A DNA stretch of 64,000 nucleotides from Coemansia sp. RSA 487 (lineage: Eukaryota > Kickxellomycota > Kickxellomycetes > Kickxellales > Kickxellaceae), in NCBI GenBank assembly GCA_027577595.1, contig JANBRJ010000001.1, positions 124,001 through 188,000 of the forward strand. Reading direction: 5' to 3'. The stretch's first letter is position 1; each line of letters opens with the position of its first letter. This document shows, one piece after another, positions 25,607 through 63,845 of this stretch. The notes under the pieces are model-generated. The model searched no databases. It was not told where the DNA came from and saw only the letters and a list, made by a program, of their open reading frames with translations. Both the position numbers and the translations under genes were made by a program.

Positions 25607-28600
25607 ATGGCTACCACATACACTGACAGAGGTACGTTATAGTTATTGCTTGCACACTTTGTCCACCCCTTTCTTGCTCCAACCACCACACCACTGTTGC
25701 CTAACCTTGCGATAATATGTGCCTTGCTTCTCGCACACAACCGACATACTGTATACTCACACTACGTACACAAATATATGCGTTTATGTGCGTATGCATG
25801 GCGCAAGATGAGCATACAGGGCTAAACTTTCTGGCTGACGAACATGGACTGGCTTTGCCCAACTCAACAACCCACAGGTGACTGGATGAAAGAGTGCTGC
25901 CTCCGTTGTAGTGGGCTTGTTCGCTGTCTATACCCCCCAAAAGCCTCATTTGACTATATTCGCCACAGTTCTCAGTCGTATCTAACTGCTACCAAATAAC
26001 TAGCTCTATATCACCCTTTTATCTGCAGACTATTGGGAAAATGGCGGTTGAAAGTGAATAAAAAGCTAGATTTGCGTATAAACTTTTTTACACTATATTC
26101 CTTTCTTCCATTGTCTTGACGCTCTGTCCTTTTGCATTCCCCTTGCATATGCCATATCTCTCTCAAGGTTGACTACATACACAACAGGCTTTCATTGTTG
26201 TATATTCCTTGTCCGCCTTTTTGTTGAGATATTCTGTACAATACATACGTACTATATCCTTCCCTCGTTTTGTTTCTCTGAATAATTTTCTATTAAAAAT
26301 CCACCCGCCTCTGCTCCCTCAAAATGGACTTGGTAATGGAAAACCACTTGTCTTCAAAGCCCTTTCATTCAATCTGAAAAATGCTGGCCTTTGTCTATTA
26401 TATAAAGCCCCAAGAAGAAATACTACAGCTCTTTCTACATCCTTGAAGCAAAGACAAAATGGACAAAGTGGACAAAACAACTAGCGATTCCACAAAGTGG
26501 GTAGCCTAAATTCCGCCTCCTTTCATTCCTTTAAGTGTTCTGCTGCTACCATCAATGCCGCTTTTGTCCATTTGGTTAACAAACGAAATACATCAGTTTT
26601 TCAATGTTGCTTTGTACGTTGTACAAATTATCCTTTGCGAGCATCGGAGTCTGGCTCCATTGCTGCTGATGACTCTAGAACAAACACACCTCTTTGTATT
26701 TGCTGCTGTTCGCACGAGTCTTAGCGACACAAAGAAAGGTCGAATCAACAACAATTATCCCTTCATCAATTTATTCCTAGATAGGCACTCTATAGTGAAA
26801 CGCCTTCTTTAGTTCTCACCATAGCCTTCTATACATTATATGGCTCCCTTTTGACACACAATTGTGCGTTGCTCATTCCATATGAAGCATAAGGCTATTG
26901 TGGCTTGGTATATTTTCGCCTCTGTCCCTGAACGTATATCATATGCTAACGAACAATTGTCATCAATCGATGCTTTTAACATGCACTTCTTTTCCTTTCC
27001 CAAACACCCCCCCTTATCCTTAATACGCTGCTATTTCATTCTTCCGCTTTAAATCTTGCAGACATGCAGATGTGGAGCATGTCATAATTGGAGAAAGAAA
27101 AGTCCCAGTCACTTGTAATGTTCCCTGTTCCCTTTTCTTCTTTTGTCAGTCTTTATTTTGTGGAACACATGTCGCTTCTGTATATTTTCAAATTATATAT
27201 GTCCTATTAATATATCTTTTATCTTGTACACGACAATGCGACTCAATCTTCCCGATGTAGAACTCCAACGAGCTAAAGATGTGCTCGAGGCATGTGATCT
27301 AGTCTCATCTAGCACCAAGGGCTGCTACTCCTCGCGCATTGCTCTCTGGATGCACTACTGCACCATATGCTGTAATGGCGACGAGCAAGTTACTGGGCAG
27401 CGTCTAGCCGATTACGTCGAGTGGATGGTTTCCTCGGGCAGTGCCGAGCGTATCCGCCAGGGCACAACGCACATCCAACAGGTTCTGCGTAATCAACTAC
27501 AGGGCGTCCTGTGTTACTGGCGCATCCAAAATGCAAATCTCCCAAACGCTGAAGACCCACGCGGCGATCCAACATTCAAAATGAAGTGGCAGCAAATTGT
27601 CATGCGCTATCCGAGCTCGCGCCACTCGCGCCGTGCCGAACCGATATATGGAGTCCAGCGACTATCGGCGACCGCCGAGCAGCCCGTCAAAGGCGAGTAT
27701 CCGCCTATCATGCCAGCTTCCGGCGGCGCACCATATCCAGGACATATGGGCGCACCCAACTCACATTCTGGACCTGGCGGCTATTCTGCGCTGCGCCAAG
27801 CACCTTCTATAGGCGCTTCTAGCCCTGGGATGCCAACATCGACTATCCAGCATGCTGGTAGGAACCCAAACTACAGGCCACATCCATCTCAGATGAACCA
27901 GCCTCGCCAGTCGTCTCCGTCACATGGGACTCACCCCTACGCACAGCAGCCAGGCATGTCTCAGCGGCCCTGGTATCAGAATCAATATGACGAGCGCACC
28001 CAGAATAGCAGCCACCAGTCGCCACAAAATGCGCATGCACCAGCATCGTATCCTGGTTCTAGTTCTAATCGCCCGCTCATTCCTAGCCCAAGCACTGCAA
28101 CTCATCCACAGGCCCCTGCTTCATACAACCAGCAGAGCCAGACAGTGCCTGAAAGGGTACCTCCCGCCTCTGGCTCCTACTACCCGGGCAAGTCTAGTTA
28201 TCTGACAGCTCCTCAGCACCCTGGTGCTTTGCCCCATCAGCGCCCACCAATCCCACACACCGATCCTCGCACTTCACCGCACTCGCTCCCACCGCAACTA
28301 TCGCCGTCGCAGCAGCATCGTATGCACGAGAACCCAGCGGGCCATCCTATTATGTCCAAAGGAGTTTCACCCAGCGGTCCTGCTGCGGCTGCGCATCCAG
28401 CGTCATCCAGACAACATGATCCAAGTGTATCACGCATGAGCGTTGATTCTGAGGAAGGCCCTATTTCAGGCATGTCCAGCAGAGTCCCCGACAACGCTGA
28501 TATCTCTCGCCCTGCGTCCGACGGCGCCACTGCTGTTCCGTCGTCGCCAAAGCTATCCGGGACACAGTATGTCTTGGAGGGAATTGTTCCCGAAGATATT

Positions 28601-31600
28601 CCCGAGTGGTCCAGTGACGATGCCAAAGAAAGCGCAGATGCGCCTGAGGGCCATCTGCTGAACCAGAACGAATTGATTGCGTTGAGTATTCGCCAACTTG
28701 GCGTCCGGCCAGAGCTTCAAATGCAGGCACGCGCGCATATCCTCTTGGGCTTGTCATCGTGGTTGTCTGCATCCTCGCGCACAGAGCTGACGCTTGGAGA
28801 TATTTGGACTGAGGAACCGTCAGACATTCCTTTGCCCGACGTGGAACTGCAGGTAAAAAGGGGCTCCGATGCGATTGCTGAGACAGAAAAGGAACCCGAA
28901 AAGCAAGCCGAATCGGATAAAGCCAGCCCTAAATCAGAAGAAGCCAGCTCTGAATCGGCTGAAACTAGTCAAAACACACCAAGTGAAAAAGAGGAGTCCA
29001 GCCCAGATATTGAAATGGCGGAGGAGCCAGCTCATGAGAAGACACCTGAGCAGCAGGAAGTGGAACACGACACAGCAGAACCCGAAAACACAAGCACCGA
29101 ACCGGAAAAGCAGACCAAGCAGCAGCCCGAAACCAATGACGAGGCTGACGAGAAGGATCTACCCGCAAAAGCCTTGTTGGAAATCAAGAACCAGGAGCCG
29201 AGCAAACAGCAGGAACCACAACCACAGCCCCAAGCGCAACCCCAGCGGGTGCTCTCGGTTGCCCTGCGTACGTTTGGCGGACGTACTACCAGCAACTCAC
29301 CCATTGATGACAAGGTAAGCGAGAAGCCAATGTGTATTTTTTGCTTTGCGACATAACATCTTGTGGTGTATATTGCATATGGTGATCATGTGGAGCGTTT
29401 TATATTTATTACAAGCGCAATCGCGTGCATATTGCTTTGCTTGACACATATGCTAATTTGTGTATAATCCATGCAATTTATGTGCATGACAACCACATCA
29501 ATTGTTTTCTATTTTTGTAGGCGCTTGTTTTGCGACACAGCAACCCGTTGCTCTGTCCTTGGGGTGCACTGTCGTTCATGCTGTTTTCGAGATGGCATGT
29601 TGCAAACGAGCCAGCGCCAGATTTTAGCACCTCTGCGTGGCAGTCACTAAAACTGTTCCCGGGGCTATCGGACAAGGACAATGCACCTACCGAGAGCGAC
29701 TTTGAGCAGCTGTTTGAAGAGGCTCTGCTAGGAGTTACAAAGGACAAGTAAGTATTATTAGTGCAAACTCGCATCAACATATCCTCCTCACTTCCCCATC
29801 TTGCTGCTATTGTTGTTTTTATTTTTATTTGGCATGTTGTTTCCCGAGCAGAATTATTTTCTTGTATTGTATTGCATCCGGCATGTTCATGTCCTTGTTT
29901 TGATGCATTGCATGGTATATATGCATACGGCAAAGTAGCCTCGGTATTTGTTCTCCGTCTTTGGAAAAGCATGTTACCGTCGCAATATTGTTTAGTGTTT
30001 TTACACTTTCCTTCTCCACACTTCCCCCCGTTATGCAGCCTATACACATGGAGGGAATGGTGGTTGTCTATCTGACCAGACAGCAGGCATTGCGCCAGTG
30101 CTGTGTTGCCAACGCGCGGATCCCTCATATCAATATGCTCCTGTGTAAATATTCTAGTTGCAGGACGAAGCATCGTTCTGTTGATAGAATACGCACACAG
30201 GTAGCCTGCCTCCATTCGTTGGTGTCTCTGGTTGGATATTTCTTTTACATTTTCACATTCTTTGGCCACACTGACGCTACCATGTTTCCCCATTTATTTT
30301 TAAGCTTTCCACAATGATTGTCGCTATTGTTGCTAACTTTTTTAGAAGCAAAAAGTGCCATCAGAAACTTGTGTAATATCCGAATACTCTACATTTCGCG
30401 ATGTGCATGCTGCTATTTCAGTCTTTATTCTCTTGTTCCTGGAAATGCCTTGCAGATCTTTCATCGCTTCTAATAATTACCACTGCTCCCGCATTTCCCC
30501 CCACATACAGACATCTTTCAGAGTTCTACAATCAGAAATATCTTGCTGGCAACGACCTTGTTATTTGAATTGCAAAATTCAACCACGCGATTTTGCTTTT
30601 ATTTTTGTTGCTGCTTTTGAAATCTGGTTGTCAGCAGCAGGGACATCATATACTGGTGGATTTCTGTTTTCCTGTGACACAACATGTAAGCTGCATTAGC
30701 TAGCTGCATTTGCCACAGCCACAGTCTATTTCTTGCGCCGCCACCCCTTCCCCCAACAATTGCGATTGAGAAATCGACATTTCTTTGTTGCTTTTTTGCT
30801 TGCATGGAAAGCTTGTTTGTATTTCTTATTAAGGATTGCCAGAAAGTGTTTTTTATTTCGGGATTCCCACCCTCGCGCCTTTCCCATTTTCGCTGGAGAC
30901 TTTCCAACAAGCAAACTCATCCTTTCCACGCCTCCGCTAACAAGTTTGGAAAGGGGCAGTCGTTAATATTCAACGATATTTGAGGCGCAAAGCCAATGTC
31001 GATCATATTCAAAACATCCATCATATTTTTAGTTTTAACACATTTGTCGCTTTCTGATTTCCCAATGCGTGTCTGGGAAAATTACACAATTACTAATTGA
31101 GCATCTTCAAAATCTGTTGTTTGCATTCCGCATGGCTTCTGTCTGTTGCTGTGAATTCTCTTTGTAGGCTTGACGGTACCAAAGTGATGAGCGATTCTGG
31201 CTACTTCTTTGCTGATACATTTGGCCTTGTTCGCCCAACTGCCACCGGAATCAAGGGGCTGGATGGCATCGACGCAATAAGTACGAACACGCTTTTGCCT
31301 GAGGTCCTTTCTGCTCTTGTTCGTGCAAATGCTGGCTACCCAGCGGACCCCTTGAAAGAATGCACGGCGCCCAAGCGCTTTGGCGTTATGCCATCGCAGT
31401 CGCTGCAACGGGAAGTGTTTCCTTGGATCAAGCCGCTTCTGATCGGTGCATTTGAACAGAGCAACAACAACGACGATGTGCGCTCAGCCACGCGTCTTCT
31501 GCGTGTTTTGCGCGAACTTCGGATTGTGCTTCTACAGGACGTGGCATTCCTGATGGAAATGCCGTACCTGAACAAGGTGATCGAAGACAACGTATTCTTC

Positions 31601-32893
31601 AAGCACGAGCTGTTCAGCTCTCCTGACTTCAATATCATGCGTCAAGAGATGCGCGCTGCTGTCGGCGAAACAGAGATTCGCAATATGGAAGCCATGTGCA
31701 CTGCGGCAGTCAGCTGGGTCAAAAACCGCAGGAGCGAGGTGCCCGATGGTTCTACTGAGAGAATGATTCCAACCGCCCCTCGTCTTCTCAACCCAGAAAC
31801 GTACTCAATTTCAGCAAACGGGTCGGCAGCCGTTGGCCCAGATCAACAGCCCAGGCCCGGAATGGAAACCACCCCGCAACCACCAGGTACACGGAGGTTC
31901 TCCGGTGCGCCATCGCTGCCTACCTCGCATGCTATAGATGAAGAGCGCAAGCGCCAGCGCGAGCCAGTTGCGCCTGGAGAAGATGACTCTGCATACTTTG
32001 GTGAGAATAGCGGTGATGCATACGATGCTGACAGGCTTCCAAAGCGCAGCCGCCGAGTCTACGAAATGGCGTTGGGTGGATCTCCATACAGAATATATGG
32101 TGATGCCGCAGGGGCATCTGGCCAGCCAGAACAACCTGGTGCGAAGCCGATCGCTGGCAACGGTTCTGATGATATGGCAGACGCTCTGAACAGCCTGCGT
32201 GCAGAGAACGAGGATCTCAAGACCCATGTGAGAAAGCTTGAGTGGGTGATCAGTCAGCACAAGACTGAAGTGCAGGTGTGGATGAGCAAGATGGAGAAGA
32301 CGGTGCAGAGCGTCTCTACAGCAGCATCGAGACAGCCTTCGCCTCACATGAGAAACGACCATGTGCAGGCACTTCGTTCGACTGTGCCACCCAGCGCTTC
32401 GCCGGCAATGGCAGCTCGTCAGCCAGCACTTGGTTCACATATGCAGCCGTCGTACCACGAGAATATGGGTTCTCAGCAGCAGCTGTCGCAGCCATCGACT
32501 CCGCGGAATAGGTACATCGATGGACAGTACCAGCCGCCAGCCGGCCGCGCCCCGGGATTGCACGCGCAAGCATCAATGCACGGCATTCGCGAATCAGCAG
32601 GTCACTACGAACGCCCCATTAAGATTGCCAGCGATAGCCAGTACCAACAGGCTCCGATCCAGCCTGCTGCAAATGGAATGACAGTGCAGCAACAATCTGG
32701 AAAGCACCAGGAATACAGGGGGCCGCCGATGCGCGTTCCGCCATCACCAAGGGGCCAGGCTTATGGTCAGCGTCCACCATCGTCTGAATACTCCGAATAC
32801 AGGCCCATACACCAGCAAGATGGTGCTGCATATGCGGAACAAGGTTGGTACACGAACCCGCGTGATGAACCGATGTATCCGACCAGGCACTAA
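25607..32893 (+). CDS. Ndc10/Crypton-type tyrosine-recombinase-like DNA-binding protein, four exons (copy 1)
   Basis: Exons: 25607-25631, 27261-29314, 29521-29747 and 31168-32893; 1343 residues. Introns are GT-AG and the phases fit. Residues about 1-140 resemble the core-binding (SAM-like) domain of tyrosine recombinases. Residues 145-460 are Pro/Gln/Ser-rich, a conserved block lies near 478-525, and an acidic Glu/Lys stretch runs about 551-646. Exon 3 carries NPLLCPWGALSFMLFSRWHV, the start of the Ndc10_II-type region as I recall it; exon 4 carries SQSLQREVFPW. I see no H-x-x-R followed by the catalytic Tyr where expected, so it is probably a DNA binder rather than a recombinase. A coiled coil lies near 1103-1152. 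The tiny first exon is chosen by analogy with the paralog at 56340-63845. An in-frame ATG at 27236 would replace it with eight other residues. DNA target and role are unknown. Confidence 0.8.
25632..27260 (+). other. first intron of Ndc10-like copy 1, 1629 nt
   Basis: The donor is GAG|GTACGT, close to the paralog's first donor (AAG|GTACGA). The acceptor GATGTAG is the first AG after a branch-like CTATTAAT and a T-rich tract. The plus strand is pyrimidine-rich in its second half. I see no gene inside; if the alternative start at 27236 is used, this is leader instead. Confidence 0.55.
29748..31167 (+). other. intron 3 of Ndc10-like copy 1, 1420 nt
   Basis: The donor is AA|GTAAGT and the acceptor TTTGTAG. 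Exon phase on both sides (two bases left, one base completing a Lys codon) is exact. No nested gene or recognised RNA is visible inside. Confidence 0.75.
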
Positions 32894-33105
32894 CCAGCAA
32901 CGGGCCTTGTAATTGGTCATGTTAGAATTGCGCGAAACCAAATGTACCGTCTAGTTGCCACTTTAATATTACCCCTTGCGATCCTATGATAATCGCAAAG
33001 ATGTTTTGATCTGTATAGTTTTTCAATTTAGTAATATTCATATTTTCTCATACCACTTGATTATATATGAAATCGTAAAAAAAAAAAGTTGAAATTCTGC
33101 ACAGC

Positions 33106-33702
33106 TTAATCTGTAATCGGAGTATTCAAGTGACTTCTAGGCTCGCTTGCATGGTTTTGGCGGTGTTCATTGTGAAACTGCTGCTGGCCGTGTGGATGTG
33201 ATAGCATGTCTCCAGGCAGTGGACCGCCGAACCTGTCCATAGGCATATCTGCGAACGGGTTGGACGAGATGGGTGCATGACTTTGTTCGGGCGCAACAGT
33301 TCCAAAGTTGCCAGCATGTGCTGGTTGATGTTGGTTTTCTCCATAGCGATCGGCATAGCGGATAATGGAGGGAGAGCCCGAGCCCTGAAGTACCTGCTGC
33401 TTCTTGCTCCTGACGGTCAGCCAGATAAGACACATGTCAATGATTAGCAGGGAGAGCATCAGGCTTGCACGCCAGGCAGCTGCGTGCGAGCCAGACAGGT
33501 GGCGAAGACGGACGAAATAGAATACAAGCTCGACTGCATAAACTGCACTTAGTGCGCTTTGGACAGCAATGGATATGTCGTGACGCCTTCTCTTGGCCAT
33601 TTCAGTCAACTCGCGTAGCTTTGATGTTGCTTGCATGTAGCGAGAGTGGCCAGCGTATCCACCGCTGCTGTGACCAACATTGGGTGGCGGGTAGTCAAAC
33701 AT
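33106..33702 (-). CDS. two-TM membrane protein, Pro/His-rich tail (possible family member D)
   Basis: This 198-residue protein has two hydrophobic segments at about residues 44-64 and 77-97, with a basic run (AKRRRHD) before TM1. After TM2 it reads VRSKKQQVLQ and then a His/Gln/Pro-rich cytosolic tail. Topology and size match the two-TM proteins at 17.5-23.6 kb, but the WLxS signature after TM2 is not conserved, so relatedness is only possible. It contains NPFADMPMDRF, where N-P-F could bind an EH domain (inference). The ATG at 33702 is the first of the frame. It diverges from the seven-TM gene at 34476. Function unknown. Confidence 0.72.
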   Translation of the reverse strand: MFDYPPPNVGHSSGGYAGHSRYMQATSKLRELTEMAKRRRHDISIAVQSALSAVYAVELVFYFVRLRHLSGSHAAAWRASLMLSLLIIDMCLIWLTVRSKKQQVLQGSGSPSIIRYADRYGENQHQPAHAGNFGTVAPEQSHAPISSNPFADMPMDRFGGPLPGDMLSHPHGQQQFHNEHRQNHASEPRSHLNTPITD

Positions 33703-34475
33703 TGCGCGATAGATAATAAAATTATATTTGTAATAATAAAATTGGTAAAACGTGCCGTCTGGCTTGTGTTGTTGCAAAGCAAGGCAGGTTTAGTCTTGAA
33801 TGGATGGTTATTTGCAAGTGCAGACACGGGTTGGAAATACATCTATATTTATGATTTGGAGGGATCTACTGCTATTAAAGGCATTGAAAAATAACCACTT
33901 GGCGCTTCTTGGTGTCCCCTGATTCTACTATCTTCCCTGTTTTCATTATTTCTCCGCACAGTTTGGATATTCTGAACAGGAAAGGCTTGTGAGTATGCAT
34001 AGACTCAAGCACAAAAACAGCCAAGGGTAAAGAAATGGTAATTTAAAACAGGCGTTATAGAAAATGTATTTCTGGCTTGTAATTGTGCCATTGGAGAAAG
34101 AAATTCTTTTTATACAACTCTTTATGATGTATAAAAGGATCCATGTGAGCAATTAAACGATAAACCGATTTCACACATGATTAAAAAGGCAAGGCAAAGC
34201 GATAATTGCAAGTAAAGAAAATTCAATGTGTAATAGTGGGCTAGCAAAGATAAAAAAAGGATTTTGCACTCTTTGTGCTAAAGAAAGAAATCATCCCATC
34301 ACAAAAGAAAAGGCGTTCACTGCTTGCAAAATACCTAGACTTTTTTCTTTTGTACGAACAATATTTCTCTTTAATGTAGGCTTTTCTATACGTTTCTTTA
34401 ACCATTTCTTATTTTTCTACTATACAACTTGCAAATATTTTTTACTTAATTGTTATCTATACTACAAAAATAGAC
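33703..34475. promoter_or_regulatory. divergent promoter region between the two-TM and seven-TM genes
   Basis: A 773-base AT-rich spacer between two divergently transcribed membrane-protein genes. The stretch just before 34476 is T-rich. No open frame with a domain is seen. Confidence 0.4.
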
Positions 34476-35543
34476 ATGGCTGCAGAAACGTCGAACGGCG
34501 GCGGAATAGCCATCATCGTTATATGCTCGCTTCTCCTGACTCTAAACTTTGCATGTCTCATATACTGCTTCTGGAAGCGCAACTACTTGCCGCTCAAGGC
34601 ATGCAACATGACAAATATGAACCTGACATACACATCCATGGTGATGACGTTTATTGGGAGTGTCAACATTGCCGGATTTTCTGGTAAAAGCAAAGTGTGG
34701 TCTGTGTGTGCTGTATCACTTGGGTGGCTAGGTATGGCACTGGGCGTGTTTGCCTTTATTGCTCTCTTTCAGATGCGCGTATACACTTACTTGAACATAT
34801 TTATACTGAATCGCCGGGCAACGGGGGTGTACTTTATAATTCCAGTTGCTTACGTTGTCATGATATCAATTATATACGCAATTATTGCCTTCATTCTTCC
34901 ACCAACCTCGGGATTTGCGTATATCTCGGAAACAAACGCTTGCTTTACTAATAACACGATGTATTTTATTGGGCTGGCCTTTGTTATTGTGCAGGCCGTT
35001 GTACTTTTGCTTTTGCTGGTCAAAATTCGCAAGATGGAATGCTGTTTCCATGAGAGCCGTAATGCGATCATAAACTTTATAGTCTGTGCTGTTTTCGGGT
35101 TTATCCTTTTGGCACTAGGTAGGATCAACTTTAGTGACGACAAGCTAGCGCTTGCAGGCATACTCAAGATCTTCTTTATAGTTGTTCCCCAGCAAATCTA
35201 CTTTTACATGAACCTCGGCCCAACCATCTATCACTTGTTTATCCATGCCAATGAGTACAACGACAAGTTTATCAACACCATTGAGGAAAGGGGCTTGGCA
35301 CAGGTGTATGAGCTTGTTTGCAAGTGTCCGCTCGGCGAAATCTCAAACATGAGCGCGGAGGGCAAAACCCGGGGCATTAGCATGGATGGCTCCGAAGCTG
35401 GCTCCGACTGTGGTTCAGAGTACAGTGTTTCAAGTAACTTTTCAGGGAATGTCCCTGGTCCAGACAACAACCAGCCACAACACCCTGCGCATCATACCCA
35501 AACTAGTCCAAATGGTCAGACGTTGCCATTTTACAGCATATGA
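34476..35543 (+). CDS. seven-transmembrane receptor-like protein
   Basis: This 355-residue protein has seven hydrophobic segments, at about residues 11-33, 48-67, 72-96, 112-138, 158-181, 192-215 and 226-252. A cytosolic tail of about 100 residues is rich in Ser, Gly, Asn and Gln. The N-terminus is short and there is no cleavable signal peptide. This is the topology of a G-protein-coupled receptor. The stretch after TM7 (FINTIEERGLAQVYEL) resembles the linker seen in fungal receptors that carry a C-terminal RGS domain, but no RGS domain is present. The exact class is not recognised. The single ATG at 34476 follows a T-rich leader. The ligand is unknown. Confidence 0.75.
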   Translation: MAAETSNGGGIAIIVICSLLLTLNFACLIYCFWKRNYLPLKACNMTNMNLTYTSMVMTFIGSVNIAGFSGKSKVWSVCAVSLGWLGMALGVFAFIALFQMRVYTYLNIFILNRRATGVYFIIPVAYVVMISIIYAIIAFILPPTSGFAYISETNACFTNNTMYFIGLAFVIVQAVVLLLLLVKIRKMECCFHESRNAIINFIVCAVFGFILLALGRINFSDDKLALAGILKIFFIVVPQQIYFYMNLGPTIYHLFIHANEYNDKFINTIEERGLAQVYELVCKCPLGEISNMSAEGKTRGISMDGSEAGSDCGSEYSVSSNFSGNVPGPDNNQPQHPAHHTQTSPNGQTLPFYSI

Positions 35544-35804
35544 TGTGAATTTCTTATTTGCTTACAGAGTAATATAAAACAGGTCTGCGAGATGAGAGCT
35601 CTGTAGTACGGTTGTCATCTTGTATTGGGCTAATGACTTCTATGGTCAACACTTTTTTGTAAAAACAAAAGCCTTTGCTTTTTCTAGATTGCTTTTCTTT
35701 TTCATATTTGTATCAGATATTGTGGCCGACAAAACATATGCACCAAATTCCAAACATATCAATAGTGAATTTGTGTTAAAACCACTATCAGAAAAAAAAC
35801 ACAG

Positions 35805-37061
35805 CTAGATCATTTGTTTGGCTGCGTCAGCTACAGCACGAGAGATAATGAGGCGCTGTATTTGCGAAGTGCCTTCGTAGATGGTAAAGATCTTTGCGTC
35901 TCTCATCAGCTTTTCTACGGGGTATTCGGTGTTGAATCCATTGCCACCAAAGATCTGGACGGCGTCGGAAGCACATTTGTTTGCGGTTTCCGATGCTAAG
36001 GCTTTGGCAATCGAAGCATAGTAGGTGTTGCGCTTGTTTTGGTCGCGCAGCCACGCAGCGCGCCAAACCATCATTCGCGACGACTCGACATTGATGGCCA
36101 TATCGGCTAGCATAAACGCAACGGCCTGGTGCTCTATGATGGGTTTTCCCATGGTCTTGCGCTGCAAAGCATATGCGGCCGCCTCATCCATTGCGCGCTG
36201 AGCCAAGCCCACTGCTGCAGACGCAACCAGCGGGCGTGTAATGTCGAAGGCGCCCATTGCAATCTTGAATCCTTGGCCGACATCGCCAAGGCGGTTCTCG
36301 TCTGGAACCTCGACGTCCTCGAATGTGATGCCGCGGGTGTCTGAGGCGCGCTGGCCCATGTTCCACTCCTTGCGGCCAACCGTGATGCCAGGACTGCTGG
36401 CATCAACAATAAACCCAGTGAACGCCTTGCCGGCATTGGCAGCTGGGTCGGTCTTGGCCAGTAAAAAGAACCAGTTGGCCTTGCCGCCGTTTGTGATCCA
36501 CATCTTTTGGCCATTGACTACCCATTTGTCGCCCTTCTTGACCGCATTCGTTTTGGCACCAGCGACATCGGATCCGGCGCCAGGCTCGGTTACGCAGTAC
36601 GCAGCCATCAGGGGCTCCTCCGTCATGCGTCCCAGATACTTTTTCTTCTGTGCGTCGCTGCCAGCAAGAATCACAGGCGCCTCAGCAAGCCCGTTTGCCT
36701 CGATTGCTGTTTGGATACCTGTGCATCCGTAAGCGAGCTGCTCAGACACCAGCGTAGCATCAAACACGCCCAGCCCAATACCGCCGTAGTTGGTCGGAAT
36801 GTGGGTGTTTACAAGACCAAGCTCCCACGCCTGCTTTATGACTTCCACCGGGTACTCGCCAGTCTTGTCGTGGTGGGGTGCGGCAGGAATAATCACATCG
36901 CGGGCAAACTGTCTTGCTGTCTCCTGGATAGATTGCTGGTCTTCGCTGAGCTGGAAACCAAGGGTTGGTGCAGTGGCCGTACTGCTGCTGCGCACAGCTA
37001 CGGTGGTGCTGAAGGCGCGATAGGTTTTGCGCGTTGTGCTGAGAAGTTGCGAGCGAAGCAT
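35805..37061 (-). CDS. ACADM: medium-chain acyl-CoA dehydrogenase, mitochondrial
   Basis: This 418-residue flavoenzyme catalyses the first step of mitochondrial fatty-acid beta-oxidation. The N-terminus ([20 protein letters not shown]) is Arg/Ser/Thr-rich without acidic residues, a mitochondrial presequence. The FAD and substrate region reads [13 protein letters not shown] then KMWITNGG. Near the end, [15 protein letters not shown] carries the catalytic Glu in the position used by medium- and short-chain enzymes. Length fits the family. The ATG at 37061 is the first in frame. Chain-length preference is judged from overall similarity only. A perfect CRE palindrome lies about 420 bases upstream at 37483-37490. 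Confidence 0.93.
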
Positions 37062-44131: not shown

Positions 44132-45549
44132 GGCTGTGAGTGGGATCTGTTGTTTATGCAGAAAAGAGCGTGTCTTTTTATGTTATCTTAACGTGTAGGC
44201 GCGTATTATTTATTCAGCGTGGATGAGATGGTATCGCAATCAATAAATAAAGTACAAAACAAGAGAAGGCTGGGGGATTTTTTTTAGAAAAGGGCTGTTA
44301 CAAGAAGAATGATATAGCAAAGTTAGAGCGAGTACAGGAGCGAAAGAGAGGAGTCGTAAATAGCACAAGCTGAGAACAGCAAAAAACAATGCGAAGACGT
44401 GAAGACACGACGCCAATCCAGGCTGCCACCAAACAAGATGATCCCGAATTCAGTAGCAGAGAAACAAGTAAGCGAAGGGAGAGGAGGGAAGCGAGGGACC
44501 GTTAACTAAAGAAAAAAGTCTGCTTTTGTTTGTGTGGCACTTTTGTTCCCTGTTGTTCCTCTTGTTTGACACCAGGGACCAGCAAAATAAGCATATATAT
44601 GTTAATAACCGATGACGACTGGAAAAGAAAAGGGAGGGGGTTAGAGAAAAGAGAAGCAAATTTTCTGGGTGCTTGGAAGAAAGGTTTTTTGTGTAGGTTT
44701 TTTTTTGGACTTTGGCGGTCCCACACAGGCTATGCGGTAAAAACAAAAAGTAGCTGATTTCGAGATTTCCAACGCAGACGCATGCGATAGTACAGGTTCG
44801 CTGCTCTGGAAGTGATGTCTTTCAAAGCAGATGACGTTGACACCGTGAATAGCAAAATACAGGTCTAGATTGACACAACCAAACACTTTTACAGATGCAG
44901 TGATGGGCTATTCGAAAGATATGAAAAATAGACCGGGACCATAGACGAGAAGTAGAACAGAGAGCGACTGCGGAATCGTTACAACAGCAAGGATACGAAT
45001 ATTGGCAGCAGAGATATGAAGAAGAAGCAGCGGAGGAGACAAGAAAGGGAAGGGATGTTCGTTCTTGATTGTTGCGCCAAAAGAGACAGCAATGTCTCGG
45101 ATCTCGAATGCCTTAAGTGTTTCTTCCGCAGATGCAGCAGCGCCACAAACTCTCGCATTCTTGGTTGGTACCCGCTTTTTACGTGACGCCTGCAAAAGAC
45201 ACTGCGTCCTTGATTCATCCCCTGCTTCAACGCTTTGTTCATCCGGATATTGTTTGGCGCAGATAATCATACCTCAAACTCTGCCCTTGTTTTCATTCTT
45301 AAGCAACACAGAAACTACTATTCAATAGACGGAGAGTCAGGCTTGGATGTGGCTAGAGCTGTTTTTTTTTGAAAATCAATAGAAGTGGTTCCAAAGCAAA
45401 ATTCTACAAGCCTCTGGCCAGCAATAATGAAGAAAGGAAAAGAAAAGATGAGGGAATGTCGACACCTCAAAAAACAGAGCAGAACAGAACAAAGCATAAA
45501 TGGACGGAGACCCCCTAAAACTGCGGATGCAATACAGTGCATCTGTCCT
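44132..45549 (-). promoter_or_regulatory. upstream region of the checkpoint kinase and 3' side of the p24 gene
   Basis: About 1.4 kb on the minus strand between the p24 stop and the kinase start. It contains an ATG-started open frame at 44908-45270 (120 codons), without a known domain, that could be a small gene or an upstream frame. The rest is A-rich on the plus strand (pyrimidine-rich on the kinase's sense strand), like the leaders of other genes. Confidence 0.35.
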
Positions 45550-53939: not shown

Positions 53940-54931
53940 TCGCCGGAATTGCCATATGTATAGATGTTTAATTAAATAATACACGAAATTGAACAAGGGC
54001 CCACTGATCCATTTCTGGTTGACACGCATAAAATAAAGGCTTTCATCCATTTCTTTGGTGTAACACCGGCCTTGAAACAAATGTTGCACAAGTACTGGCA
54101 GGTCTTGATAAATAAAAACATACTCCGCACCGGACAGATTTTGCAATTTTATTTGCAACGGATCAGTAGTATAAAAAAGTACATTGGGTAATATCGAAAT
54201 ATCAGCTAATTTCCAGCTGACAATTTTCAAGACACCAAGCCGACAGTAGCTGAACGACAAGACTAGAAAATACCCAGATTTGAAATAACGATCTACATTT
54301 TCTAAATTTATCTACAGCCTGATAGCTCCAAAAATACATATTGATCTGCTTGGGTTTTCCCTTACCGAACAAAAAAAGTGGTATTTTTAAACGCTTTCGT
54401 CATCAATCCATATTCGCATTACTTGTTAAAGCACATTCTTAATTAAAATTGGGATAGGTGGAATCATTCCGATTTTGCTGTAACACAAAGGTGGCTATCC
54501 ATTCCAATAAATCTCTTGGCTGTTTTTTCACAGTCCTTTTAAAAAATATCTACAAATAGAAACCCAGAAAAAAAGTACAGGATTGGACAGCTCTAGCACG
54601 CAAGAAAAAACATTTTTTCACAGTCACTTGAACGCTATCGTTTACCGGCAAATTCCGCCATATAGGAATATAAATAGCTTTCTTCATGACAACGACCATC
54701 TTGCATCTTGCATCTTGCTTGTAAAACAATCGACGACTCTTGGCTTACGACATTATTCTTTTCTTTTCTTGTACAAGTTTGGAAAAAATACACCAAGGAC
54801 TTTATCTGTTTAATCTGCTTTACTGGTGTCGGATCCACACTAGCCTTAAAGTTGTTTAGGAAGAAACAAGCGTAAATTTCGGTACGACAATTGACAAGAT
54901 ACAACAATTGCTCTACGACTGAGAAAGAAGA
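53940..54931. promoter_or_regulatory. intergenic region and promoter of the trypsin-like gene
   Basis: About 1 kb, AT-rich. A TATA box (TATAAATA) sits at 54669-54676. A minus-strand open frame at 53886-54257 runs into the 3' end of the kelch gene and lacks a start ATG, so it is not annotated. Confidence 0.4.
54669..54676 (+). promoter_or_regulatory. TATA box TATAAATA of the trypsin-like gene
   Basis: A consensus TATA element about 256 bases before the start codon. Its distance is plausible for a leader of about 200 bases. Strong TATA boxes are common in induced secreted-protease genes, which fits the product. Function is inferred. Confidence 0.35.
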
Positions 54932-56161
54932 ATGGTTAAAGGCATTTTTGCGTTATATGGCGCCCTAGCACTGGCATCCAGCTCAATGCTGGCATCCGCC
55001 TCGCCAGTCGGTAATTCGGGGAGCAGCAACCTCAGACCACGAATCCTTGGTGGCTCAGATGCCAGCAAGAGCGACTATCCATTTATCGTGTACTTGCAGA
55101 ACACCGCTGAGAAGACATTCTGCGGTGGATCCATTATTTCCGAGGACTGGGTCCTTACTGCCGCACACTGCATCAAGACCGCATCCGCCAGCGATATCAA
55201 AGTGTACATTGGCCAGGCTGAGTATAACCCGGATCCCTCAAAGGCCACAGCAGTATCTTCTATCACCACGCATCCGGGGTACGACGACTCCTCGATGGTC
55301 AATGACCTGTCACTGCTCAAACTGGCCAAGCCTATCACCACCAGTGGCAACTCCTCGACCATCTCGGTTGACACCACGTCTGTCGGTGATGGCGTTACAG
55401 TGACTGCCCTCGGATGGGGCTACACGTCCGAAAATGGCTCTTCTGCATCAAAGAACTTGAAAAAAGCAGATCTCAAGACACTCTCACAGGCTGAGTGTGG
55501 AGCAAAGGACACAAAGTTCACTGGGAACAACGGTGCCCGCATATGCGTGGCAGCAGACACAGGTAGTGACACTTGCCCTGGCGATTCTGGTGGCCCGTTG
55601 ATTCGTCAAGTCAATGGACAAAACGAGCTTGTCGGTGTCACAAGCTTTGGAACTGCTGGTGCTGGCCAGTCGATTTCTGTCAGCTGTGGTGGCCCTGGGA
55701 TGGTCAGCCTGTTTACTCATGTCAACTACTACAAGTCATTCATCGATTCGACTACAGGCGGACTTCGCCAGATCGAGGGATCTAAGACCAACGAAAGGTA
55801 AATATCGACTACACATATCATGTCTATCCACTTGTTTTGCATGGATGCTTTGTACCTAATGCCACATGTTATTAAGCTTTGAAACTTTTGCTAATCTATG
55901 TACATGCGTTTACATATCGCCTCCTTCCGCTTTTGGGATAGGGGCACGTCTTCTACCAACGACAATTCATCATCGGCTTCCGAAAACGAATCGCAATCAT
56001 CGTCTGACGAACTTAACATCAGCGATCTCTTGAATCTTGACTCTGAATCTTTGACCAACTCTTCCTCAGCCAATAGTTCAGGCAGCGCAGTAGAACGGCC
56101 ATATCTGATCTTTACAGCAGCCAGTGTTGTGGCTGCCATTATCGCAATCCTTGGAGTATAA
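54932..56161 (+). CDS. trypsin-like serine protease with GPI-type C-terminal tail, two exons
   Basis: Exons are 54932-55797 and 55942-56161, 361 residues when spliced. A signal peptide (about 1-23) and short propeptide precede RILGG, where activation would free the Ile N-terminus. The catalytic triad is H79 (TAAHC), D125 (NDLSLL) and S219 (GDSGGP). D213, six residues before the Ser, gives trypsin specificity for Lys/Arg. Exon 2 adds about 50 Ser/Asn/acidic residues and then a hydrophobic C-terminus (PYLIFTAASVVAAIIAILGV) like a GPI-anchor signal. Donor AAAG|GTAAAT, branch-like GCTAAT and acceptor GATAG fit in phase. Without splicing the frame stops four bases into the intron, giving a 289-residue secreted form. 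A surface-anchored protease is therefore likely; the GPI anchor is inferred. Confidence 0.88.
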
Positions 56162-56339
56162 AGCCCCCCTGCTTGAGAATCCAGATTAAAATTATTTAGA
56201 GTTGAAAGCACTGGCCCTTGTATGTTTGTTTGTTTGTTTATAAAAAGATTAAACGCTTTTCATACACGGAGATATAAAGTTGAAAAGATTAATGTCAACA
56301 CGAAAATTAGCTGGAAAATGATGTATATTGAATTGCTTA

Positions 56340-59300
56340 CTATTGTTTGCTGTCTCTGCGCGCAAATTGCTCATCGATGCGGCGCATCCAGCTCAGGACA
56401 TCAGAATGCTTTTGTGCGACAGAAGTCTCCAGCCTTAGCAACCGCTGGCGCAAGTATGCATTTTCTTCCTTGAGCGTGTTTATCTGCTCGATTTCACTGT
56501 GTCCATACTCGTCGCGACCAGTCACCATTTCTACACGGCCACCGTTGCTGCTGTTGTCTCCCGTGGCCGAGTCGCTGAGTCTCCTCGTACCAATATTGGA
56601 AATAATGCTTGTATCTGCATCTTTTCTCTGGGAATTTCCAATATATGGATAATGAGGATATGAATAGGGGTGGGCATGCATATTTTGCTGCTGATTTGGG
56701 TGCACATAATGATGTTGTCCGGGTCCACGACTAACATTTGGACTTCCAACTTGCATTGACGATGCCATGGTTGGGGATCGTGTAAACTGGGCTATCGATG
56801 GCAGTGGTGTGTGGGGAGCTGCTTTATTTGCGCTATTTGGTAGCCCCAGATTAGCAGCCTGCGTCTTTGGCGAGCATGCCATTCTAGGAGGCGAACGTGT
56901 GATCCGTTGGTGCTGATAATAAGGCGTCCCATGGATACGATTTGCAGCGGTTCTTGGAGATCTGGCATGTGGATAAGGATTAGAGCTGTTGTTTGGCATG
57001 CCTGGTGGTGGTGGAAGAACCGCACCGCCACCATATTCAGGACGGCGGCGCTTTGACAAATGCGATATATTTGTGCTGCCTGGTGTGTTGGGGCCACTTG
57101 CTGCGGCAGGTCGAAAGTGTCTGTCATTTCGGTCGTCAAGAAGCCGAGATGGGAGGCTGTGAGACATTGGCTGAGATATCACTGAGAGAGACGACGAACT
57201 TTGCATCTGGACATCTATGCTGCGTGGACTGTCTGCGATCATTGCTTCTGGCACTGCACCCCGCATTCCGCTCACAGATACAGGAGGAGAGGGCGATAGT
57301 GTTGGGGAAAATACCTCCTCGCCTTCGGGGCTTTCCCCTGCCATAATTGCATCTTTTGTGGGAGAAGAGATCGATGGCAATACAACACCTTGGCCGGAAG
57401 CAACCTTGTCTGGCGCTTGGAGTTTAAAATCCTCTGATTTTTCAAACAAGCCGCCCCCAGAAACAACAGTGGCATTGCCAGTATCTGTGCGATATGCCTC
57501 GTTATTTCCAAATGCAATGTCGAGATCATACTGAAGTGTACGAATTTCATCTGCAGCTTCTTCTTGCATCACGTCGCAAAATGAAGCAAACTCAGCTGTG
57601 TTGAAAATAGGATGGTTTAAAATGCCATCTGATCCAAAACGGTCTTCAGGCAATTGGTTGGCGCAGCATTTAAGCATAGCAGCATCCTACAAAATCGAAA
57701 ATCGAAAATCAAAAAGAAAAAAGAATACATGTTAATAGCCAGTCCTCCAATGGAAAAAGAAGGACATTCATTGTAAAAATAGACATTGCATAAAGAACTG
57801 AAGCCAAGCCTGTTGATCTTTTTTTTTGCTATCATTCAACAGATAATGTGGATTTGCCACGCACACGACATGCGTAATTACAAGGAAAGTCAAAGCATTT
57901 TGGCACATGTGTTTGTGCAACTCCTGGGTCAAACAGGAAAATATGGAACCAAGCAGACCATCAAAGGGAACTTGGGATAGATCGACCATTTTTTCAACAG
58001 GGCAACGCATTAAACATCAACAGCATGGAAATGGTGAGTACAGAAATAAAAGACATTGTTATTGCAAAAGCAAAAGGAGAAGCCCTCAGATTAAAGGAGC
58101 AGCTGCACCAGCGAATGGACTCAATGCTAGTAACATCATCTATGCACCAATGCATGCGCGTGTACACGTAAATACACGTGCGGAATAATACGAAATATGT
58201 CTGCATGGGGGTTGTGTTTGCTTGTCAACATGTCTGATAAACCCTTTTATCTGTATGTCATACATGCATCTGAATGCGTTTTCTGTCTGCAGGTTTTTTG
58301 GATGCTAAAAATATAACAACAGCCACCGTGTCAATTTTTTGATGTCAACAAAAATGGCATTTGCGTTTTAAGGTGTGCATTTACCGTGTGCAGGGGAGCA
58401 TAAACAAACATTCAGCATGCAGGCCATGTCATCGTATATGCAATGGCAAAAGTTTTGCTGCCAATGAAATGAAAATTGCATGGGGAGGGGAGGAAACTCA
58501 TAGGCGTTCAACATGTGATATGGCTGCAATGGATGGAATGAGCCACGCAGCAGACCATCAAAAAATTATATTTACCTGTAGAAGGACAATTCGCAAATCG
58601 AGCAGAAAATCAAGGAAGCGGCTCGTGTTTCGCTTTTCATCAACACTGGTGTTGTTTGGAACCGTGTTCAGCATTGTCGTTGCCCAAGGGAACACCTACA
58701 TTCGTAAAAAAATATTTGAAGTGTCAAAAAGCAGACCGCATAGTTAATTATAAGCCATTTTCCGTACTTGCAAGGAAGGTTTGTTTTAGAGCACAAGCAT
58801 CGACTGCAGAGGGCGCACAGAAAGGACCATTTGAATGGTTTTCTGAAGCAATATTCTGCGTGACGCATTGTAGTCAATGGGTGCATCAGTAAAAGTATGG
58901 TATTTGATGTACGCTGAGTCAATAAAATGAATGGCATGCCTTTCTTGGAACATTTGGAAAAGTTTAGCATTCTGACTGGAACTCCTCTCTCCACCCAATT
59001 CGTGCGGTAGCAAGAAAATATGAAATAAAAATCGACGAGTGCACTTACCGAATGCTGTAATGAGTCAGAAGGAATAACCTTGTGCCGCTGTATGCAGTGG
59101 TGTTGCTCATAATAGCCGCTATTTTCAGGAGCCAGAACGGAAAGTCGATCCATTGGCTCGCTATCAGCTAGAGGCACTAGAATGTTACTGCTGCTGCCTA
59201 TTCTCTCCGCACTGTTATCATTACCACGTGGCATACGCGGATCATGATGGCTGAGGCTCTCCGATTCTCTGTGGATGCCCAATTGCTGCTGTGCGCGGTC

Positions 59301-62300
59301 AAAGGTACGCTTGCGAACAACCCTATATTTTGAATGTGTTCATTTGCAAAAACAAAAAAAACGCACACTTTTGTGATGATTTTGTTAAATACCAATATAT
59401 ATTTCGCTGAAAGAAAACATGCTTATTTGCCACAAACATAATGGTACCGCTTGTTGCAATTACAGCGCTTAAAGATCTGCAACAGCACAGTACGGATGCT
59501 TGCAAAGGGAAACCACGAATATCGGATAAGCAAGTCACGAAATGGATAAATAAATACTAACAGCGGAGGGGGGTGTAGAACAGAAAATAAAGATATCCAA
59601 TGAGAAATCACCAGTCTATACTAGTATTTACGTATTAGGCAAGGATCGATGCCTTAGGAGCAACATTAATTCCAAATCTGAACAGGTCATACGGAATTGG
59701 GAATGCCTGGTGTCATTCAGTTAAGAATTGGAAAAAAATAAGCCGCATGTTACAATAGTCGATTACCACTTATGGTGATAAGGCAAAGAAAACCCAGCGC
59801 ACATGCAATTCAAAGCAAGCAAATTGATATGGATAATCTACTAGCCTCAATAACGACTGAGAAATGCAATTGGTCAATAAATCCGCTCACACATACTAGC
59901 TCAGGCTGTAAGCTTGAGAATAAGAGTCATAAAGGCGCAAAAATTGGCAGTGTTTCATCAAAAAACACCAAGGAACCGTGCACATAATTCTTTTTAGGTG
60001 ATCATATGATCATAAGGCGCTGCGGCGATAAATATGCAAATGTTGGACTTACCTCTCTATTGGCAGCATCTCGGGTGGTAGAAGATCCCGCACCAAATCC
60101 AGACGTTCATCAGCGGATACACGCCCCGATTCAATTGCAACCGCAGGAAGCCCAGTGCTGTTCCTTCTGGCATCCAGCCCTGGCGATGTAGACATGTCCG
60201 GGCTATTTGGGGCTGACGGAATGACAAGCATGTTTTGCCATGACGCATTGGCAAACGTGGGCTCCGGCTGCTCTGCAATGTGCCAGCGATAAAAGAGCAG
60301 TGTCGCCAGAGCATTCCATGCGCAGAAAAGAGGGTTCCGAGAACGAATGATGCTAAACTATATATGAAAACAAGAGCCAGCGCAAAAAGAGAGATCAAAA
60401 ATTAGTATACCATACTTGGACAGATCCCTTCATGTGAAAACATTAGGTTGGCAAGGAAGAAAGTGCAAGCATCATCTATTCTGTACACATATGCTTTCTT
60501 AGAAACAGGAGGTGCCATTGTGAGAAAGACATGTGGGAGTATGATATGAAGCATTCTCTCTCCACATCAAGAATGCTACAACCGCACTGGATGCAGATCG
60601 TTAGAACAACGACTAGAGTACAAAAGCGGCATGAATTCTAGCATTGTTAGCAGAAAAAAGACACATGACATATCTGGGGAAAATAGAAATTAAAGCCAAG
60701 ATTGTTTAATTGCATTGGCAAGATTCAACAAACAACTAACTGTTCATTGTTATTTGCAAAGCATATTTAACTCACACAGGATGGTGAGATGCGCTGCCAG
60801 GCAAATATAATGATAACCTAGAGGGAAAATATTTAGGCGTTTTCATTTTGACAGCAGAGAGCAAAATAATGATCCCAAGACGCAATATGGAAGACGTCTG
60901 CATATCAGGTGGGATAGATTGCTATTCTTAGTTAATTAAAGCTGCATCGCACAAGACATGATAGTTGAAGATGTGTGTGCCAAGATCTGGCGCCAAGAGG
61001 AATAAATATAGTGTGCTCAAATAGACGAGAACCTGTTGCGGCAATCAAGGATATGCCTTTCCGCTATCTGCGTTCATTTTTTGATTATAAATTCCACAAT
61101 ACCGCACACTCGTGATGCGAACAGATAGACATCCTTTTTTTTGCCTTCTCATTTAGCATCAGAATTATTTAGCCTGGAGTAGTGAATTCAAACTACTGCT
61201 TCTAATAGATATGAGATCAGGCTGCAAGGAGCAAATGCAAAGACAGCTCAACTGACCTGTGCGTACAGCCAGCCGGCAACAAAATTTTTGGAAAAATATG
61301 CCATGCAGATTTTTTTCAAAAGCATCATATGAGACATGATGCATTTTAGAAGATTCTGATGAAAAGGAAAAGAAGTGAATGGCGTCTGTGACATCCTTTT
61401 TGTTCATTCTCACGTTCTTTCTGCGCAGCAAGGAATGGGAGGCAATACATAAAAATAGGCAAAACAGGAAATAATGCCGCTCATTGTATGGATATTGCCC
61501 ATCATGGCCATTCTGCAGGTGATTCCACCAGTCCGCAGAATAAACATTGCGGGTGAACAACAATTGCACATGCATTGTTAAAATAATGGAGAAAGGGTAA
61601 GCATGTCATACGTTTTTTGTCATTCAACACAGGGGGAGGGGAACAGAGCAAAAGAACAAGACTAGCAGCTTGTTGTAGTGCTATAGTTGTTTACCAGACG
61701 CTGTCGGCGTCAATGGGGGGTTGGGTGGAAGAAACAAGGGGTGCAACAGCAATAAAAATAGCATACAAACGCACACTAATTCATCCTCTTTGCATCTTGA
61801 GATGCACCAGGAACAATAGGAAATGATGTTGACACAGCAAGTCCAAATAATAAAAGCCGAAGGAAATAGATATGAGAGCAAGCTATTTGCGCGCTCCTTC
61901 AGCTGCAGTCATGGCAAGAAGACATTATGGACGCAGGTTGGGAGAACAATATCAATTATAATGGCATATGATGTGCAAAGGAAGTGGCCGAACAGTATTT
62001 CATATACATTACCTGCTGTCGTGAAGCTGTTCCAGAAAGTGCTCCGGCACCTTGCTCTGGGCGTGCACCAGCAGCAGAGTTTGTGGTCAGCGATATGCGC
62101 AGGACTGAAGATGGCAGGCGGGGCGCCATTGTGCTTGAAGCAAAGCGTGCGTCCATCATACGCAACCCAACAACATCGGTTGCATCGGTCCATGTGCTTA
62201 TAGCAATTGTAAACAGAAAACGGGCGGCATTTGGCGCCCATCCGCTACTTTGTAGCCATCGAAGCTGCCACTCCAGCTCCATTGGCTCAGACAATCTAAC

Positions 62301-63845
62301 TGGGTACTGGGGCGAATGTGATCCAGAGTGCAGTTGCTGCTCCTGCGCGTGATATGTGTGTGTTTGGTTATGATAGCGAGTATAGGAGTATGGAGGCTGC
62401 TGGTGCGGGAAAATAGGGCCATATTGGCGTTGTTGTTGCTGGTAATTGTAGTGTCTGAAATGGTTGCTGTTGTTGTAGGATGATGCAAGAGCTGGTGTGG
62501 GATACATGATGGATGACGGCATTATTGGACCAGTTGATCCACTGCCGGAACCTATACTATCGAAGCCCTGCGTCTCGGGTATGTATGCGCGGGGCTGGAA
62601 TTTATCGCGGCGTGGATAGTTGCGCAGGATCTCGTCCCACTTGGCCTGATAGCGTGTTCCTTCCTTTGGAGAGACCATATCTGGATTGTTGCCGGTCTGT
62701 ATCCTCCACAGGCAGATGACGCTGCCCATATGGTCGCGTAGAATGTCCGGCACGTAGCTCTTTTTTGTGTTGATTTTGTTGACAAGATCGATTTCAAAAA
62801 GCCAGTCGAGATAGTCGATAAGTTTGTCCTCAGTGACGGTAAAGTCCATGCTGTGCTCCTTGCAATAGCGGACCCACAGGGCAGCACGCCACGCATAGAT
62901 GGACCGAGTCTTTTTGGAAATAAACTCGCAGTTCTCGTAAAGCTCTTGAGACTCTTTTAGATCTACACAATTGAGTTTTGGTTAATAAAACAAAATAATT
63001 ATTTGCTTAGCAGCAAGACAATACATGCTTCATAGTGCCGAATATTGTGCAACTTTTGGTTTTTTTTGAGGTTGCCATTTTCTGAGTACTCTCATTCATT
63101 ATCGGCAGAACAACAGAGTGCACAAGCCATTGTCGTTTTGTGGGAAAAGGAAAGACATTTCCTGTAATAAGCAATATCTCTAATGTAATATTGTATTGTG
63201 GCTGTTGTTCAGCAAACCCAGCAATCGGAGTCAAACAAAGAGGAAGAGAAGCTGAAGCCTCTTTCCTCTATTCTTGGCTAGCAATAGGATGGAGGCATAA
63301 CTAATCATCCAAGCGAGATAAAAAATGAGGAGGGCACGCGAACAAGGAAAAATTTTATCCACCAAATTACTAAATGATAGTCCTCTCAGTTACAGGAGAG
63401 AAAAGGGCCTGTGTGGCGTCCTCGATAAAACAAAACAAAAAACAGATGCAAGATTAATATCTGGTATAGCACCATAAAGAGAGCGAATAGATACTACTCT
63501 TGTTGATATTGGCATCGCCAAAAAGCACAGCAAGCATGCTCTTGCAGCCATGATGCTCTATGGCTTAGCAAGTTAGGTCTGTTTCAGAGAGCACACATAT
63601 TGGTGGAAGGGAAGGAGAGCGAAAGCGGCAACGATCTGGTCAAAGAGAATGCATTGGATGTAATGTAAAGCAAAGAAGGCAGGATATGGTGCCGATGAAT
63701 TGCTCTTTTCTCTTTTTATATTATTCTCTCGGAGCAAGCGCACAAAATACAGTAGGTTTGTGCATTGAGCCCATGCTGTTGAACAAAGCATCTGTGTCGT
63801 TGCAGCAACAATAGCGTTCGTACCTTGCTTAGAATACAGAGCCAT
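56340..63845 (-). CDS. Ndc10/Crypton-type tyrosine-recombinase-like DNA-binding protein, six exons (copy 2)
   Basis: Exons on the minus strand: 63845-63824, 62962-62013, 60357-60053, 59322-59049, 58695-58576 and 57686-56340; 1005 residues, all phases consistent. It is a diverged paralog of the gene at 25607-32893. Both have a tiny first exon followed by a phase-1 intron, the N-terminal core-binding-like domain (here LWVRYCKEHS and YLDWLFEIDL), then NPLFCAWNALATLLFYRWHI and PSDSLQHSVFPW; exons 5-6 read DLRIVLLQ then DAAMLKCC where copy 1 reads ELRIVLLQDVAF. A C-terminal coiled coil (about 957-1000) is shared. No catalytic H-x-x-R/Tyr set is seen, so a DNA-binding or architectural role is more likely than recombination. 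Introns are 861, 1655, 730, 353 and 889 nt. Long Pro/Gln-rich linkers separate the domains. Targets unknown. Confidence 0.85.
60358..62012 (-). other. second intron of Ndc10-like copy 2, 1655 nt
   Basis: The donor CAG|GTAATG and acceptor CATATATAG are exact with respect to reading phase. Copy 1 has its corresponding splice at the same residue boundary (before the R-x-x-NPL stretch) with only 206 nt. No nested gene, RNA or repeat is recognised inside; a further small exon cannot be excluded. Confidence 0.7.
62963..63823 (-). other. first intron of Ndc10-like copy 2, 861 nt
   Basis: The donor AAG|GTACGA follows a 22-base coding exon beginning ATGGCT. The acceptor is TTGTGTAG. The phase-1 join gives MALYSKQ then DLKESQELYENC, matching copy 1. 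No gene is visible inside. Confidence 0.65.

Follow-up and report, generated by a model that had tools for sequence, protein, structure and literature searches.

The genome of the fungus Coemansia sp. RSA 487 encodes two facing genes, here called A and B, whose products are catalytically dead-looking host proteins related to Crypton-type recombinases, a kind of protein that is already known. Both genes lie in a stretch of 64,000 nucleotides (the window; GenBank assembly GCA_027577595.1, contig JANBRJ010000001.1, positions 124,001 to 188,000 of the forward strand). In a Pfam search with the whole proteins, both pass the curated cut-off of 26.3 bits for the NDC10_II family (PF16787), A with 62.6 bits (E 4.2e-17) and B with 47.5 bits (E 1.7e-12). 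Because fungi often carry NDC10_II proteins, A and B are less novel than they might seem. We favor, at about an even chance, the reading that these are host genes derived from a Crypton-type recombinase whose products now act as dimeric DNA-associated regulators.

Gene structure and family membership

Models of both genes were built by hand from the sequence alone. Gene A (25607-32893, plus strand) runs from an ATG at 25607 to a stop codon ending at 32893 and encodes 1343 amino acids in four exons (25607-25631, 27261-29314, 29521-29747 and 31168-32893); its model follows the open frame across the exons, the GT-AG introns and the homology to B. Gene B (56340-63845, minus strand) runs from an ATG at 63845 to a stop codon ending at 56340 and encodes 1005 amino acids in six exons (63845-63824, 62962-62013, 60357-60053, 59322-59049, 58695-58576 and 57686-56340), modeled from the open frame and the homology to A. 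The two genes face each other across 23,446 bases. All eight introns begin with GT and end with AG, and they range from 206 to 1655 nt. An in-frame ATG at 27236 offers gene A an alternative start that needs no intron 1; exon 2 of gene B has no in-frame ATG ahead of the conserved domain, and B therefore requires its tiny first exon. The first-pass annotation had placed both genes exactly, at start and stop codons alike.

NDC10_II is the only Pfam family that A or B matches up to E 10, which bears out the relation to NDC10_II proposed at first pass. The match is concentrated in two blocks. The first carries the motifs NPLLCPW and SRWH in A (residues 696-740; 29527-29661, plus strand; profile positions ~87-155) and NPLFCAW and YRWH in B (residues 327-371; 60217-60351, minus strand; profile positions ~84-138), and as isolated fragments these blocks score 40.3 and 31.2 bits, respectively. 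The second, at the end of the domain, carries SQSLQREVFPW and LRIVLLQD in A (residues 844-943; 31391-31690, plus strand; profile positions ~238-316), where the exon 4 fragment scores 30.9 bits. The corresponding fragment of B, at 25.1 bits, falls just under the cut-off; its motif SDSLQHSVFPW is divided between the end of exon 4 and exon 5 (58576-58695, minus strand), to which the comparison with A assigns the VFPW and LRIVLLQ block. The whole motif series of the first-pass annotation (NPL-x-C-x-W, R-W-H and S-x-S-L-Q-x-x-VFPW) is thus present in both proteins.

In A the domain is interrupted by an acidic, Glu/Gln-rich stretch that B lacks (residues 541-661, borders approximate; 28856-29218, plus strand). 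Once these residues are omitted, the best NDC10_II match lengthens to profile positions 40-155 and scores 72.4 bits, so A is best described as having a single NDC10_II domain into which an acidic stretch is inserted. The lengthened match reaches profile positions 37-40 and so takes in the start of the domain (residues 498-527; 28727-28816, plus strand), the helix expected to carry the first catalytic arginine (Arg I). B is unmatched before profile position 84, and its domain without the ends but otherwise whole scores 52.3 bits with a match that still starts there. Neither protein matches the profile over its full length, which is unmatched at positions ~155-238 in A and 138-227 in B.

The NDC10_II domain is preceded in both proteins by what the first-pass annotation took for a core-binding (CB) domain of tyrosine-recombinase type, an assignment that structure prediction supports. 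This domain spans residues 10-126 of A (27263-27613, plus strand) and 9-124 of B (62613-62960, minus strand), is 30% identical between the two and is their strongest mutual match (E 3e-23). An AF2 model of the B copy, with A as the second row of the alignment, has six helices, a predicted local distance difference test score (pLDDT) of 82.5 and a predicted template modeling score of 0.76. A Foldseek search of the PDB with this model returns 58 matches up to E 10, of which ranks 1-11 are recombinase-type (E 6.7e-3 to 0.54, probability 1.00-0.80): eight rows of Cre/Tre, an integron integrase, an archaeal integrase domain and, at rank 9, SroF, which we take to carry the recombinase fold. Rank 12 is a CH domain with a probability of 0.06, and the phage repressor MrpR follows at rank 17. 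The predicted structure supports a recombinase CB domain without a specific tie to Ndc10. In the BFVD collection of viral folds the best match of the model is unnamed (probability 1.00, E 0.057), an integrase stands at rank 3 (0.80) and nothing reaches E 0.001; in PHROGs the CB pair yields two unnamed weak matches, each for one of the two members (best E 0.006).

No recognizable active site

The catalytic residues R-H-R-Y of tyrosine recombinases are not found in either protein: there is no collinear HxxR and no recognizable Tyr, with the caveat that the residue-level alignment here is weak. In A the segment expected to hold HxxR, W and Tyr (residues 770-843; 31169-31390, plus strand) is mostly unmatched by NDC10_II and contains none of the three in recognizable form. 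By alignment, the residue at the Tyr position is Leu 811 in A and, placed by way of A, Leu 474 in B, and the Arg I position holds Ser in A and Asp in B (173 of 2000 shuffles align A and B as well there). A contains four HxxR strings (at 130, 206, 1240 and 1248), all outside the catalytic region. The absence of visible catalysis noted at first pass therefore stands for the Tyr and for a collinear HxxR; the part that does not hold is that no such string is seen, since B has a single one, HDPR at residue 452, within its diverged catalytic stretch in exon 4 (59049-59322, minus strand).

This string is what speaks for A and B having stayed active as recombinases by means of an atypical active site, as it falls in the right stretch of B and could serve as HxxR. 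We hold this to be extremely unlikely. HDPR is not collinear, lying 22 residues from the Tyr-aligned position as against 35 in a hand-written consensus of the NDC10_II family (213.9 bits against PF16787, 265.1 when extended). Leu occupies the Tyr position in both proteins, A has no HxxR in the region, and the HxxR-to-Tyr alignment of B is at chance level. Between the flanking anchors the alignments as a whole are better than chance, the real score being reached by 1 (consensus with A), 5 (consensus with B) and 7 (A with B) of 1000 shuffles. For the HxxR-to-Tyr part alone, 68 (A) and 294 (B) of 1000 shuffles reach it, which makes residue-by-residue statements weak in this stretch; for shorter pieces bounded by exons, 223 (consensus with A), 483 (consensus with B) and 638 (A with B) of 1000 do as well. 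Accordingly, a mapping of H, R and W onto A and B, by which A would have TKVMS in place of THLGR, is not claimed, as shuffled sequences score equally well. The match of A to the Arg-I helix of the consensus, equaled by 0 of 2000 shuffles, is likewise left unused as evidence, the consensus having been written after A was read; B does not match this helix, its score being reached by 1534 of 2000 shuffles.

Exons overlooked in the models might restore the catalytic stretch, and this was rejected after listing all sense-strand stop-to-stop frames of at least 25 amino acids in the eight introns and searching the window by tblastn with the consensus, A and B. The consensus finds A exon 3 (1.6e-10), B exon 3 (4.9e-7) and A exon 4 (5.9e-4), and in the same search does not match B exon 4. 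A further weak consensus match at 22209-22370 on the minus strand (E 0.022, 57 columns, 30% identity), which neither A nor B matches, is probably due to chance.

Lost catalysis would not be unusual in this family, because the NDC10_II profile hardly requires Tyr or the second Arg. When the hand-written consensus is mutated in silico, Tyr to Phe costs 0.2 bits and the second Arg to Ala 0.0, so that Phe scores like Tyr and the second Arg carries no weight; Arg I to Ala costs 1.8 bits, compared with 0.8 for another Arg of the same helix as a control. H, W and Tyr to Ala cost 3.4, 3.3 and 6.5 bits, respectively. These costs, taken from one hand-written sequence, suggest that much of the NDC10_II family may be catalytically dead. 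The same consensus gives a sub-threshold match to Phage_integrase across the HxxR and Tyr stretch (E 0.0056, and 0.0088 when extended). Published NDC10_II proteins, yeast Ndc10/Cbf2 among them, resemble A and B in having both end blocks, a recombinase-type domain ahead of them and no recognizable recombinase catalysis; A and B differ in that the domain of A is split by its acidic insert of ~120 residues and in that the catalytic stretch of both is unmatched.

An old duplication under constraint

All three introns of A match the first three of B in phase and context. The first common intron is in phase 1, at E9 in A and D8 in B; the second, in phase 0, directly precedes the R-x-x-NPL block; the third, in phase 2, follows the NPL block inside the diverged stretch, where exact homology is likely. 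The correspondence of splice positions asserted at first pass is therefore confirmed, for the third intron less surely. The two introns peculiar to B separate LQHS from VFPW and VLLQ from DAA. Corresponding introns suggest that an already spliced gene was duplicated at the DNA level, as opposed to two separate insertions of an element.

A chance likeness is excluded by BLASTP, which aligns A with B at E 3e-23 (37/122 identical) and at 8e-16 (79/291). In three conserved blocks, 37/121, 20/45 and 32/88 aligned codons encode the same amino acid (31-44%). First and second codon positions are identical in 0.47-0.78 of the aligned codons and third positions in 0.31, 0.38 and 0.33, near chance; even among identical residues the third bases agree in only 14/37, 9/20 and 14/32 cases. 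Synonymous change that looks saturated, together with a conserved protein, argues for an old duplication with both copies selected in the three blocks, and the codon pattern reads as purifying selection, constraint being judged here from codon-position identities rather than from a formal ratio of nonsynonymous to synonymous substitution rates. Two diverged paralogs with the same order of parts, both intact and long separated, had been proposed from the outset, and the E values, shared motifs, common coiled coil, open frames and codon positions agree with this.

The same data bear on the possibility that A and B are decaying copies of a Crypton transposon, either pseudogenes or recent insertions. 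An NDC10_II match with missing catalytic residues is what such copies would present. However, the frames are open through four and six exons, the introns correspond, and amino acids are conserved against near-chance third positions; a repeat search, covering lengths from 22 nt upward and hence above the 6-bp terminal direct repeats reported for CryptonF, also brought up no convincing element ends. Repeats of at least 22 nt are absent from 24000-35000, and 54000-64000 holds one 25-nt pair (76%). We consider decay very unlikely. CryptonF transposons share the recombinase-derived architecture with A and B, but A and B lack a recognizable R-H-R-Y, a detectable GCR1_C domain and visible ends of at least 22 nt, and they are spliced and duplicated in the manner of host genes.

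Possible roles of the two proteins

The proteins also share a C-terminal coiled coil, at residues 1103-1150 of A (32168-32311, plus strand) and 951-1001 of B (56355-56507, minus strand), identified by eye from the A/B alignment; this stretch alone gives E 4e-4 in BLASTP (16/67 identical). In the scheme that we favor, the ancestor would have been an NDC10_II-family tyrosine recombinase of Crypton type, whose already spliced gene was duplicated to give A and B. The recombinase body may now serve as a non-cutting DNA clamp, with the coiled coil joining two subunits (A-A, B-B or A-B) and the long Gln/Pro/Ser-rich and acidic stretches recruiting partners. A and B would then work as DNA-associated dimers with a regulatory role, most likely in transcription.

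Several observations count against this scheme or its structural basis. With isoelectric points of 7.8 (A) and 6.2 (B) the CB domains are not basic, and with 5.8 and 4.3 the end blocks are acidic; these values disfavor strong DNA binding. No PDB structure reaches E 0.001 or better with the CB model in Foldseek, the Cre/Tre rows superimpose loosely (template modeling score to the query 0.56-0.59, root-mean-square deviation 3.9-9.5), and Ndc10 is absent from the best 50 of the 58 matches. A search of PDB sequences with the CB profile finds no recombinase, and none of the four CB and Arg-I fragments of A and B matches any Pfam family. The predicted model of A exon 4 reached a pLDDT of 41.9 and was discarded, which leaves the recombinase fold of the second half to the sequence profile.

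The charge of the conserved blocks, neutral to acidic, is also an argument that A and B keep a recombinase-derived scaffold for protein-protein contacts and have lost DNA binding, and a conserved coiled coil with no GCR1_C found is in keeping with this. In recombinases the CB domain forms part of the clamp that clasps DNA. That this domain is the strongest match between A and B (E 3e-23) stands against its having become a mere scaffold, and we regard the scaffold alternative as doubtful, if a real possibility. GCR1_C itself is found in neither protein in the Pfam search up to E 10, and a link through this domain to the GCR1-like proteins named in the first-pass annotation is not supported.

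A further alternative casts A and B as centromere or kinetochore proteins that act like Ndc10, binding, bending or bridging centromeric DNA and recruiting the CENP-A machinery. The NDC10_II family takes its name from Ndc10, and the catalysis lost in Ndc10 is not recognizable in A and B. Yet the hand-written consensus, with its 213.9 bits to the family, matches yeast Ndc10 at a weak 27.5 bits; Ndc10 is thus a remote member, and its role is not transferable to A and B. Nor do A and B match Ndc10 directly in sequence: residues 1-1150 of A find nothing among PDB sequences up to E 10, and a profile of A and B, through which alone B was searched, finds three unrelated growth-factor chains (E 1.7-2) and nothing else, so that no Ndc10 chain appears in either search. 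In addition, GCR1_C is reported in Cbf2/Ndc10 (PMC3212892) and CBF3 belongs to organisms with point centromeres (PMC6077249; on Ndc10 see also PMC5771398). A centromeric role is accordingly quite improbable. We think it unlikely, too, that the coiled coils pair A with B in a dedicated heterodimer, a two-subunit, cut-dead clamp domesticated independently of yeast Ndc10 and Gcr1 that would mark or organize chromosomal sites in this fungal lineage, whether centromere-like or regulatory and genome-wide.

Comparison with other recombinase-derived proteins

Reuse of the recombinase fold for regulation is seen in SroF. It is seen as well in MrpR, a repressor that has the recombinase fold but does not function as a recombinase (PMC10516654). 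Both resemble A and B in this respect and differ from them as proteins of SPbeta-group phages, presumably of separate origin; MrpR retains its Tyr (PMC10516654). In budding yeasts, the domestication of Crypton-type recombinases reportedly gave rise to Cbf2/Ndc10 and several regulators, probably in four events; Cbf2/Ndc10 and Gcr1 are similar to CryptonF recombinases in their central portions, but the catalytic site is not preserved (PMC3212892). The yeast genes Gcr1, Msn1 and Hot1 probably record the same kind of event as A and B, the domestication of a Crypton-type protein, but have in common the GCR1_C domain (PMC3212892) that was not found here. The animal DUF3504 genes have all lost the catalytic Tyr and the second Arg (PMC3212892), and it is these two residues that the NDC10_II profile can do without. 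Transposons with tyrosine recombinases occur in Mucoromycotina, Kickxellomycotina and Blastocladiomycota (PMC10386755).

A gene pair of this kind outside budding yeasts was not reported in the literature covered, mostly the available parts of open-access papers. No relatives appear in IMG/VR (queried with the A/B alignment, the domain alignment and the hand-written consensus), in GTDB genomes (domain alignment) or in plasmids (a 237-residue piece of A, and the consensus); B alone was not a query. These collections contain few or no fungi, so their silence says little about fungal relatives.

Neighboring genes

Gene B adjoins a trypsin-family serine protease (54923-55801, plus strand) that matches the full Pfam profile (1-220/220). 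A multi-span membrane protein (34380-35543, plus strand) gives a sub-threshold match to the class C G protein-coupled receptor family 7tm_3 (18.9 bits, cut-off 33.5). At 1243-7482 on the plus strand, a single stop-to-stop frame of 2079 codons encodes a Dicer with helicase, dimerization and RNase III domains, and the host therefore probably has RNA interference, to judge from this gene. An FHA-domain protein kinase (41714-44182, minus strand), presumably Chk2/Rad53-like by its domain order, and a DRMBL nuclease-type protein of the DNA-repair metallo-beta-lactamase group (15137-17311, minus strand), which we take to be SNM1/PSO2-like, are likely two DNA-damage genes within one window. The window also encodes a ribose-phosphate pyrophosphokinase, a COQ5-family methyltransferase, ribophorin II and a p24-family protein; by itself this gene content points to a eukaryote, probably a fungus.

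Implications

The retention of a linked, old and constrained pair without a recognizable GCR1_C suggests that the recombinase body was of use by itself. The pair formed by A and B offers a testable system for the role of a cut-dead recombinase in a fungus.

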